From assembly GCF_027532185.1 (NCBI RefSeq), contig NZ_JAPZSV010000012.1, forward strand, positions 1 to 64,000: DNA of 64,000 nt, read 5' to 3'. Shown piece after piece: positions 35,178 to 37,896 of this stretch. The notes beneath the pieces were generated by a model that saw nothing but the letters and a program-made list of their open reading frames with translations, was not told where the DNA came from and did not search any database. Within the stretch, counting starts at the first letter, position 1. Every line of letters starts with the position of its first letter. The stretch is from Hylemonella sp. (GTDB lineage: Bacteria > Pseudomonadota > Gammaproteobacteria > Burkholderiales > Burkholderiaceae_C). Made by a program: the position numbers and the translations under genes.

Positions 35178-36587
35178 TCAGCCCCGCGCCGCCAACGCGT
35201 CGCGCTCGCGCGCAAACACCTTCCAGAACGCCGCCTCCTGCGTGGTGGCGTAGTTGATGCGCATCAGCGTACTGCGCTGGCGGCTGGCATGGAAGAGCGC
35301 GCCCGGCGCCAGCAGGTAGCCGGCGTCCAGCAGGCGCTGCGCCAGCACCTCGGTGTCCACCCCCGTGTCCACCCAGCCGAAGAGCCCCGCAGGCGGCGCC
35401 ACAAAACGGCAGCCGTGCGCCTCGGCCAGCTTGACGCTACGCGCACGGGCCGCGTCGAGCCGCACGCGCACCCGCTCGGCATGGCGGCGCAGCTGGCCCT
35501 GGGCAATGCACCAGGCCAGCGCCTGCTCCAACAGGGGCGGGGTACTCAGCGTGGAGATCAGCTTGGTGTCGAGCAGGCGCATGGCCAGCGCCTCGGGCGC
35601 GGCCAGGTAGCCGATGCGCCAGCCCGGCGCGAGGATCTTGGCAAAGCCGCTGACGTAGATGGTGCGCTGAAGCTCGTCGAGCGCGCACAGGCGCACGGCC
35701 TGGTCGGGCGCCAGATGGCTGTAGGAATCGTCCTCGACGATGTGGAAGTCGTGCGCGGCGGCCAGCTGCAGCACGCGGTGGGCGCTGCCCGGCGTCAGGC
35801 TGTAGCCGGTGGGGTTGTGCAACACACTGACGCTCACGAACAGACGCGGGCGGTGCGCCTCGCAGTAGCGCGTCATCACCGCCAGGTCCGGGCCCTCGGG
35901 GCCGCGCGGCACGGGCAGGATGCGCATGCCCAGCGCAGCAAGGCGCGCAAACTCCACGGCCCAGCCCGGCTCCTCGACCATGACCGGATCACCGGGACGC
36001 AGCAGGGTGCGGCTCACGATGTCCAGCGCCTGCGAGGCGCCCACCGTGGTGATGATCTGCGCGGGCACGGCCTGGATGTTGAGGCCGGCCAGCCGGTCGG
36101 CCAACGCTCGGCGCAGGCTGGCGTCGCCCGCCGGTTCGCCGTACTGCAGCGAGGCCTTGCGCAGTGCGGCCGGGCTGGTGACACGGCGCACGGCCGTGGC
36201 CAGAAAAGGGGTCTCCAGCCAATCGGGCGGAAAGACGCCGGTACCGGGCTGCGGCCCTTCGGCGCGGTTGTGGAACATGGCACGGATCAACGCCGTGGCA
36301 TCCACCGGCGCCGGCGCGTCGCTGGCGACCGGTGGGCTGCTGCGGCGCCGCGGCACCGCGGGTTCACGCACATAAAAGCCGCGGTTGCGCCGCGCCTCCA
36401 CCAGGCCCTGGGCCAGCAGGCGGTCATAGGCTGCGACGACGGTGGACGGGCTCACGCCCTGCTGCGTGGCACACAAGCGCACGGAAGGCAGACGGCTGCC
36501 GGGTGCGAGCAGGCGGTCGCGGATGCGCTGGGCGTAACGACCGGCCAGCTGCTCGGCCAGGGTCTGGGCGGTACCGGAAGTGAGCAT
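35178..36587 (-). CDS. MocR-type regulator (GntR HTH fused to aminotransferase fold)
   Basis: A 469-aa protein. The N-terminal winged helix (about 1-75, GSRLPSVRLCATQQGVSPST, then VVAAYDRLLAQGLVEARRNR) is joined to a fold-type I aminotransferase domain with the PLP Lys in SGFAKILAPGWRIGYLAAP. MocR proteins sense amino-acid-like ligands through PLP and control adjacent metabolic genes. The ATG at 36587 starts the HTH; the frame continues upstream into a repeat element. It is divergent from the DMT-aminotransferase-PhzF-VOC operon, which it probably controls. Confidence 0.88.
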   Translation of the reverse strand: MLTSGTAQTLAEQLAGRYAQRIRDRLLAPGSRLPSVRLCATQQGVSPSTVVAAYDRLLAQGLVEARRNRGFYVREPAVPRRRSSPPVASDAPAPVDATALIRAMFHNRAEGPQPGTGVFPPDWLETPFLATAVRRVTSPAALRKASLQYGEPAGDASLRRALADRLAGLNIQAVPAQIITTVGASQALDIVSRTLLRPGDPVMVEEPGWAVEFARLAALGMRILPVPRGPEGPDLAVMTRYCEAHRPRLFVSVSVLHNPTGYSLTPGSAHRVLQLAAAHDFHIVEDDSYSHLAPDQAVRLCALDELQRTIYVSGFAKILAPGWRIGYLAAPEALAMRLLDTKLISTLSTPPLLEQALAWCIAQGQLRRHAERVRVRLDAARARSVKLAEAHGCRFVAPPAGLFGWVDTGVDTEVLAQRLLDAGYLLAPGALFHASRQRSTLMRINYATTQEAAFWKVFARERDALAARG

Positions 36588-36643: not shown

Positions 36644-36657
36644 ACTGTACTGACAGT
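36644..36657. promoter_or_regulatory. Candidate MocR operator
   Basis: ACTGT-ACTG-ACAGT, a dyad 57 bp upstream of the MocR start and on the gene side of the repeat element. Position suggests an autoregulatory site; there is no direct proof. Confidence 0.3.
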
Positions 36658-36681
36658 GTGCTGGTCTGCTGCCTAAAGTGT

Positions 36682-36949
36682 AGGGCCTGTTCACACTGAT
36701 TTCTCAAGATGCGTTGCGGATCAAAAAAGTCATGCGGTAGGCGCGTGGACGCCGCCGGGGCGATCCCCGGCCAGTCCGCGCAACACCCCGCATGGCTTTT
36801 TTGGCCGCAACCCGCAGGGAACGGGGTGAAAACGGCGCCACTCGTTGTTGCACTCCTAGCCCAGGCGGCCAGCCTGGGCGTCGTCGTGCGCCTAGATCGG
36901 CGCCGTTTTCACCGCGTTCGCACTTGAGAAATCAGTGTGAACAGGCCCT
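36682..36949. mobile_element. MITE-like palindromic element with 27-bp terminal inverted repeats
   Basis: A 268-bp noncoding unit bounded by perfect 27-bp inverted repeats, 36682-36708 (starting AGGGCCTGTTCACACTG) and 36923-36949. Inside lie two further arms: 36723-36737 with 36788-36802 (14 of 15 pairs), capped by a CGGGG-CGAT-CCCCG hairpin, and 36825-36839 with 36899-36913 (15 of 15), capped by CCCAGGC-GGCCA-GCCTGGG. The unit can fold as a three-way junction. No target duplication is obvious and no transposase is encoded. It lies in the promoter region between the MocR gene and the DMT operon and ends 5 bp before the DMT start. A fixed structured repeat is the alternative to a MITE. Confidence 0.72.
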
Positions 36950-36954
36950 CGTCC

Positions 36955-37896
36955 ATGTCATCCCATCCCTCGCCCCAGACGGTCCGCCGCGGTTACGCCC
37001 TCGGCCTGCTGGGCGTGTGCGTCTTCGCGCTCACCCTGCCCATGACCCGCCTGGCCACGGGCACGCCCGAGGCGCCCCAGCTGGCCGGCCTGTACATCGC
37101 CGCCGGCCGCGCCGTGGTGGCGGCCGCGCTCTCGGCCCTCTTCCTGCTGGCTGTGCGCGCACCGCGGCCCACGCGCGCGCAGTGGTCCACCCTGGCCTGG
37201 GTGGCGCTGGGCGTGGTCTTCGGCTTTCCCTTCCTGACCTCCATTGCGATGCGCCATGTGGAGGCCGTGCACGCCAGTGTGATCGTGGGTGTGCTGCCCC
37301 TGGCCACGGCCGCCGTGGGCGCGCTGCTTCAACGCCAGCGGCCCTCGCTCGGCTTCTGGCTCTGTGCGCTCGCAGGCACGGGCCTGGTCGTGGCCTTTGC
37401 CATCCTGCGCTCGGGCAGTGCGGGGCTGAGCCTGCACCCGGCCGATCTGCTGCTCCTGCTGGCCATGCTCTGTGCCGCCGTGGGCTACGCCCATGGCGGA
37501 CGCCTCGCGCAACACATGCCGGCCACGCACGTGATCTGCTGGGCCCTGCTGCTGTCCCTGCCCGTGACGCTGCCGCTCACGCTCTGGACCTGGCCGCAGC
37601 AACCCGTCAGCGCCACGGCCTGGGGCGGCTTCGCCTACACCGCCGTGTTCTCCATGTGGCTGGGCTTCTTCGCCTGGTACCAGGGCCTGGCCCTGGGGGG
37701 CACGGTGCGCGTGAGCCAGCTGCAGCTGCTGCAGCCCTTCATCTCCATGCTCTGCGCCGTGCCCCTGCTGGGCGAAACGCTGGACGCGCTCACCCTGGGC
37801 TGCGGCCTGGCCGTGATCGCCCTGGTCTATGCCGGGCGCAAAATGCCGGTGCACACCTCGTCCTCTACTCTGCTCCCGCAAGGAAAAACACCATGA
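36955..37896 (+). CDS. EamA/DMT-family transporter
   Basis: A 313-aa membrane protein with about ten hydrophobic segments in two EamA repeats (second near HVICWALLLSLPVTLPLTLW). The family exports small metabolites such as amino acids. The ATG at 36955 has no ribosome site, because the palindromic element ends 5 bp upstream; an in-frame GTG at 36937 lies inside the repeat arm. It overlaps the aminotransferase by 4 nt. With a MocR regulator and aminotransferase next door, an amino-acid-like substrate is likely. Confidence 0.82.
   Translation: MSSHPSPQTVRRGYALGLLGVCVFALTLPMTRLATGTPEAPQLAGLYIAAGRAVVAAALSALFLLAVRAPRPTRAQWSTLAWVALGVVFGFPFLTSIAMRHVEAVHASVIVGVLPLATAAVGALLQRQRPSLGFWLCALAGTGLVVAFAILRSGSAGLSLHPADLLLLLAMLCAAVGYAHGGRLAQHMPATHVICWALLLSLPVTLPLTLWTWPQQPVSATAWGGFAYTAVFSMWLGFFAWYQGLALGGTVRVSQLQLLQPFISMLCAVPLLGETLDALTLGCGLAVIALVYAGRKMPVHTSSSTLLPQGKTP

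Follow-up and report, generated by a model that had tools for sequence, protein, structure and literature searches.

A mobile, structure-conserved palindromic repeat family without visible target duplication in one Burkholderiales family

What is the long palindrome that stands between a regulator gene and an EamA transporter gene in Hylemonella sp., and how did it come to lie a few bases upstream of a start codon? In the window, by which we mean the whole stretch of 64,000 nucleotides that was analysed, this element covers 268 bp at positions 36682-36949 of the plus strand, the orientation that we applied to all of its copies. Its right end points towards the EamA (DMT-type) transporter gene (36955-37896, plus strand), which is followed by an aminotransferase gene and then by a PhzF-like gene. 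On its left lies a MocR-type regulator gene with GntR and aminotransferase domains (35178-36587, minus strand), divergent from the EamA gene.

The element in front of the EamA gene

The element begins and ends with 27-bp terminal inverted repeats (36682-36708 and 36923-36949), the right one being the perfect complement of the left. Between them, the predicted fold contains arm 1 (36713-36811, predicted pairs 32-130 of the element, apical hairpin 36754-36771) and arm 2 (36819-36919, predicted pairs 138-238, apical hairpin 36859-36879). The middle of the element is occupied by a small hairpin, CCCGCAGGG (36811-36819, CCC-GCA-GGG), which is conserved in the alignment, and the layout accordingly runs terminal helix, arm, central hairpin, arm, terminal helix. 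Because of this central hairpin, which is absent from the earlier note, the junction may have four branches. The minimum free energy of the RNA fold is -190.9 kcal/mol compared with -106.4 (sd 5.1) for 200 dinucleotide shuffles, none of which folded as well (z -16.7), and DNA parameters gave a z of -15.5. The perfect inverted ends, the two inner arms with their own hairpins, a structure beyond chance and the gap of 5 bp before the ATG at 36955, all of which the earlier note had described, were borne out; moreover, the ends that it gave proved to be those of the repeat unit, as copies elsewhere begin and stop at the same places. By eye, no conserved open reading frame is present in the element, and the frames that cross it exit into other frames. 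A search of the window against Rfam returned no matches, with the best weak hit at 18.6 bits against a gathering score of 60.7.

The element had also been thought to have replaced or reshaped the promoter of the transporter gene. This view did not hold: the sole promoter-like site (CTGACA-18-TAAAGT, 36650-36679, plus strand, from a consensus scan only) is intact 2 bases to the left of the element, and the empty alleles of relatives retain a similar stretch there. What the insertion altered is the leader between the promoter-like site and the EamA ATG. In three empty alleles, the ATG lies 6 to 9 bases after a similar box (TAAAGT or TAGAGT), and therefore the mRNA of these relatives may be nearly leaderless, while in the window the element would make up most of the leader of the EamA gene. 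A simple scan for intrinsic terminators with loops of up to 8, which is blind to whole arms, found none.

Copies, empty sites and junctions

The genome of the window (G000) carries seven full-length copies of the element, together with an internally deleted copy (C11:254664-254891) and short remnants. In a set of 93 copies, defined as matches ending no more than 6 bases from both element ends, the unit measures exactly 268 bases in 59 and 261-272 bases in all 93. A second set was obtained by retaining 123 of 363 profile matches as full length and non-identical, which gave 115 copies at 110 sites; L126 and L168 are counted here as one site, and their flanks show separate insertions before similar genes. 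Truncated and mini copies were left out of all statistics.

Within one Burkholderiales family (Comamonadaceae-type names), the element is widespread. Matches were found in 20 of 60 sampled genomes, namely G000, 15 of 25 others of the genus, 4 of 10 from the family and none of 24 from the other families of the order. Of 299 genomes of the family, 71, which belong to 50 of the 141 genera sampled, contain a match, partial and arm-only matches included; by our reading of the table, matches of at least 260 bases occur in 20 genera of this sample. Copy numbers are lower bounds, as they come from the best 12 candidates per genome in the 60-genome set and the best 2 in the 299-genome set; G018, which was scored more deeply, holds 13 near-full-length copies. 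A pattern scan of named genomes returned 51 stretches, some of which are not elements, and the profile confirmed full elements in Caenimonas, Ramlibacter, Roseateles and Rivibacter records, among others. Carriage by plasmids or phages was rejected because a search of 72,556 plasmid and 50,697 phage records gave no match. A full copy of the window element's family (F1) was observed at L202 7063-7330, in a contig binned as Bradyrhizobium; a Hylemonella carrier stems from that contig's bin series (C5_concoct), and mis-binning appears more plausible than transfer.

Each of the seven G000 copies has an uninterrupted counterpart site in some genome of the same genus. The empty sites are base-exact for L052 (GGCT|AAAC) and L054 (GTT|AGT), and the other five have diverged around the junction. 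That every G000 copy has an empty counterpart indicates that the element moves. The flanks of the copies were checked for target duplications, as the earlier note had proposed, and none are visible: across the element, the flanks share a 2-mer at 5 of the 110 sites (approximately 7 being expected by our own arithmetic), a 3-mer at none, a 4-mer at one and a longer word at none. The preferred target is YT|AR, with T at -1 in 76, A at +1 in 70, Y at -2 in 90 and R at +2 in 93 of the 110 sites. The first A of the unit is kept in 98 and its last T in 97 of the 110 copies, that is, more often than the flanking T and A, and therefore we counted both as element and not as duplicated target. TA is found at both junctions in 46 of the 110 sites, which makes a decayed TA duplication unlikely, though possible. 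The earlier suggestion of a multi-copy mobile repeat of MITE-like kind is upheld by the many copies, their wide spread and the empty sites, and we regard it as well supported that this repeat family is mobile, conserves its structure and leaves no visible target duplication.

Some unusual forms were also observed. At L210 (G016:C55), the site of copy L051 is otherwise empty but contains CTAGGGC, which may be left over from a copy that was excised or deleted. Mini-copies of approximately 40 bases, in which the left end is joined to the right, occur at L149, L150, L152, L273, L286 and L056 601-640, several of them at CT|AG-like sites. Arm 2 is apparently flipped in G017:C196:32033-32133 (L134) and G018:C1:2411085-2411165 (L252), where its opposite-strand identity reaches 91 and 93%, respectively, compared with 80 and 84% for the whole element.

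Compensated helices, candidate movers and the start-codon bias

Over 105 predicted pairs in the 93 aligned copies, 8867 of 9709 cells are Watson-Crick, and the remainder comprise 412 G-T, 242 A-C and 188 other cells; the pairs derive from the fold of one sequence, which favours that fold somewhat. The five copies in G032 share 70-73% identity with the window element. When their consensus is compared with that of the genus, 21 pairs have changed on both sides and are still Watson-Crick, the length is still 268, and 14 of the 58 unpaired and 58 of the 210 paired positions differ. The loops are retained while the helices vary by compensation. When columns with fixed non-standard pairs are left out, G-T and A-C deviations are nearly equal (204 versus 184), which argues against an RNA-specific constraint on inserted copies; such a constraint was rejected, since the equality extends to copies beside start codons (49 G-T versus 56 A-C). 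Thus, of the structured-RNA reading in the earlier note, the expected compensatory changes are abundant, but the RNA-specific part was not sustained. At orthologous sites, changes are mostly one-sided. Two-sided changes appear already among the closest copies, chiefly in the terminal helix: the 12 closest disjoint pairs show approximately 5 two-sided versus 12 one-sided changes in that helix and approximately 2 versus 31 in the arms. The replicating lineage seems to preserve the structure, whether through selection for movement or through templated copying, and inserted copies seem to decay.

We consider it moderately probable that the element is a non-autonomous mobile palindrome, the folded strand of which is copied by an enzyme acting in trans, and which persists at sites that tolerate its folded transcript. 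The folded single strand would be what is recognised and copied on movement, the enzyme that moves it would be supplied in trans, and insertion would take place at YT|AR without a visible target duplication.

A competing account holds that the compensation does not reflect structural selection and that, during movement or replication, template switching or hairpin-templated synthesis uses one side of a helix to rewrite its partner. Among the closest copies, the two-sided Watson-Crick changes, which include transversions, are consistent with such rewriting, as are the lack of a G-T excess over A-C and the behaviour of a sister family (F2, described below), in which copies approximately 92% alike carry quite different yet complementary ends. 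However, the retained loops and length show that part of the element is under selection, and given the lower frequency of two-sided changes in the arms, copying would not be a complete explanation. We hold this account to be possible, though on the unlikely side.

The search for a mover bears on two further alternatives. A single Y1_Tnp gene of approximately 240 codons is present in most genomes of the genus (a match in 25 of 26), and the element might be REPIN-like and moved as single-stranded DNA by this resident RAYT-like protein. Its palindromic form without target duplication would agree with this proposal, and so would its equal-length arms around a central hairpin; by our reading of the alignments, these arms resemble each other weakly and in register in 5 of 7 elements. 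However, the similarity of arm 1 to reversed arm 2 scores clearly above shuffles in only 1 of the 7 (z 3.9, compared with -0.1 to 1.5 in the others), and the gene is also present in 9 of 10 genus genomes without F1. Additionally, no significant match to the element adjoins the gene in the five loci compared, and the surroundings of the gene contain no strong inverted repeat in the three loci tested. A REPIN-like origin is therefore unlikely in our estimation, and as to a RAYT partner in general, these data neither exclude nor support it. The Y1_Tnp gene itself appears to be vertically placed (L267-L271), and in four of these five loci its neighbour resembles the gene for the glutamate synthase large subunit. 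A reverse-transcriptase partner was rejected because RVT_1 does not track the element: it occurs in 9 of 26 genus genomes and in none of G000, G015 and G018, each of which has several copies.

The second alternative is a classical MITE, in other words a deletion derivative of an insertion sequence moved by a DDE transposase (such as an IS630-like one, with TA duplication), the inner structure being incidental. The terminal inverted repeats, the lack of coding capacity and the sites with TA at both junctions speak for it. On the other side, the outermost A and T are better kept than the bases that flank them, L048 and L050 carry the terminal A and T although their empty alleles lack TA at that point, and the loops and arms are conserved, which goes beyond the ends alone. 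Moreover, exact matches to a 13-base end pattern in G000, G015, G018 and G032 included no pair of ends around a gene and no insertion sequence with these ends (unpaired sites were read in the first three genomes). DDE_3 (PF13358, IS630-type) is absent from G000 and scores above the cut-off in 2 of the 26 genomes of the genus; together with the junction counts and the empty sites, this led us to reject an IS630 origin with TA duplication. We judge a classical MITE to be quite improbable.

The position of the copies beside genes is biased, as is their orientation, and both biases are strong in numbers. Gene starts were taken from our own simple codon-score gene caller and not from annotation. 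On this basis, the distance to a start codon is at most 8 nt from the right end at 33 of the 110 sites and from the left end at 5 (p 4e-6); for a limit of 15 nt, the corresponding numbers are 43 and 7. Independently of gene calls, the ten bases to the right of the element contain ATG in 40 of the 93 copies, compared with 16 for the ten bases to the left (reverse strand) and an expectation of approximately 14.5 by our own arithmetic. Control YTAR sites from the same loci have a start within 8 nt in 6 of 151 cases, compared with 38 of 110 element sites, and a TAG stop in 25 of 151, compared with 50 of 110. Junctions that form a TAG stop are evenly divided between the left (13) and right (14) ends where no start lies within 30 nt, whereas they number 24 and 2, respectively, where one does (Fisher p 7e-4). 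Because the orientation bias appears only where a start is near, we read it as retention and not as directional insertion. Fold stability was rejected as its cause, since the two strands fold equally well over the 110 sites (mean -178.3 for plus and -177.5 for minus, plus being better in 58) and folding leaves the orientation unexplained.

For the mobile palindrome copied in trans, these biases suggest how copies may persist. In a transcript, the element would close into a stem and bring both flanks side by side, and a leader or an intergenic junction might thereby still be translatable; the terminal helix is predicted in its flank context at 110 of 110 sites. Selective retention would then explain the concentration at TAG stops and before start codons, and the reverse orientation would be less tolerated beside start codons. 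The window copy entered between the promoter-like site and the EamA ATG. Where a start is found no more than 15 nt from the right end, copies are slightly better paired, with 198 non-Watson-Crick cells of 4162 compared with 421 of 6458 in other copies. A Shine-Dalgarno-like word of at least 4 bases lies to the left of the element in 18 of 33 start-abutting copies and in 8 of 23 others, and one of at least 5 in 3 of the 33. A bridged ribosome site is therefore plain in few copies, among them L110, L113 and L116 with a split Shine-Dalgarno layout, and a general split Shine-Dalgarno arrangement, clear in 3 of 33, was rejected. That hosts recruited the element at many genes as a beneficial cis-acting RNA, a leader or junction regulator, would suit the sense-orientation and start-codon bias and the better pairing of start-abutting copies, but it is very unlikely given that there is no G-U preference, that sites differ between species and close relatives have empty alleles, and that multi-copy groups occur at only 4 of 110 sites, with one grouping wrong.

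Known repeats and sister families

Our best reading is that the element is like ERIC or REPIN in kind and a proven member of neither. ERIC/RU-1, Correia/NEMIS, RUP and YPAL/RU-2 are small MITE-like repeats of bacteria, and in the literature used here (PMC2229807, PMC3049150), ERIC, NEMIS, RUP and YPAL are, like our element, short, non-coding, multi-copy, mostly intergenic and foldable as RNA; for ERIC, NEMIS and YPAL, the comparison is with their descriptions. According to the same papers, empty and filled sites have been shown for YPAL, as here, ERIC affects mRNA in an orientation-dependent manner, and BOX often provides the stop codon of a gene. The repeats covered there are described as below 200 bp, and most of them as A+T-rich and with target duplications. 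In contrast, our element is 268 bp long, G+C-rich and without visible duplication, and has two long arms, kept loops and one end biased to start codons. The REPIN/RAYT account (PMC3116915) describes palindromic, non-autonomous elements that persist as copy populations, with a single-copy Y1_Tnp gene in the genome, and in these respects they resemble ours; they also have two inverted halves, which the two arms of our element may parallel. However, REPs adjoin their own RAYT gene in that account, whereas our element does not, and non-carriers keep the gene. In phage T4 genes 38 and 25, as reported in PMC3014915, a hairpin sets the Shine-Dalgarno sequence and the AUG at a working distance; those split sites span 22 and 27 nt and were tested experimentally, whereas ours would span 268 nt in a predicted layout that is plain in 3 of 33 copies. 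We did not find this repeat superfamily described in open-licence PubMed Central listings and abstracts, a scope outside which subscription journals lie. The superfamily poses a testable question, namely how palindromic DNA has spread without a visible target duplication or transposase, and the dozens of natural insertions beside starts (at most 8 nt away at 38 of 110 sites) offer material for measuring the effect of a bulky folded leader on translation.

Two sister families accompany F1. F2 is 278 bp long (L056 641-918, G000:C10:207855-208132, adjoining a mini-copy), has the ends AGGGAAGGTC... and shares with F1 the terminal helix, the two arms and a central CCCGAAGGG hairpin. Of the 26 genus genomes, 14 contain matches to it; longer split variants occur in G023 and G010, and pieces of it in G011, in which F1 has no match. 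F3 is 268-270 bp long (L322 377-644, also at L317, L320, L321, L323-L326 and L329-L331), has ends (AGAGCCTGTTCACGG...) that are nearly those of F1, and has the architecture and central hairpin in common with it. Among the F3 copies listed, those of at least 240 bases are found in F1-carrying genomes only. A more far-reaching conception would make of all this a self-templating mobile element transparent to translation, with helices rewritten during movement, insertion without duplication between stop and start codons, a sense transcript folded so tightly that ribosomes and their binding signals could work across it as a portable split leader, and at least three sister families; we find this combination quite doubtful.

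Solitary hairpins of 75-80 bases that resemble arm 1 of F3 were observed at G003:C1:2952531-2952611, G008:C1:1396132-1396209 and G018:C1:2502813-2502887, two of them in genomes without an F1 match, and they are perhaps a building block of the superfamily.
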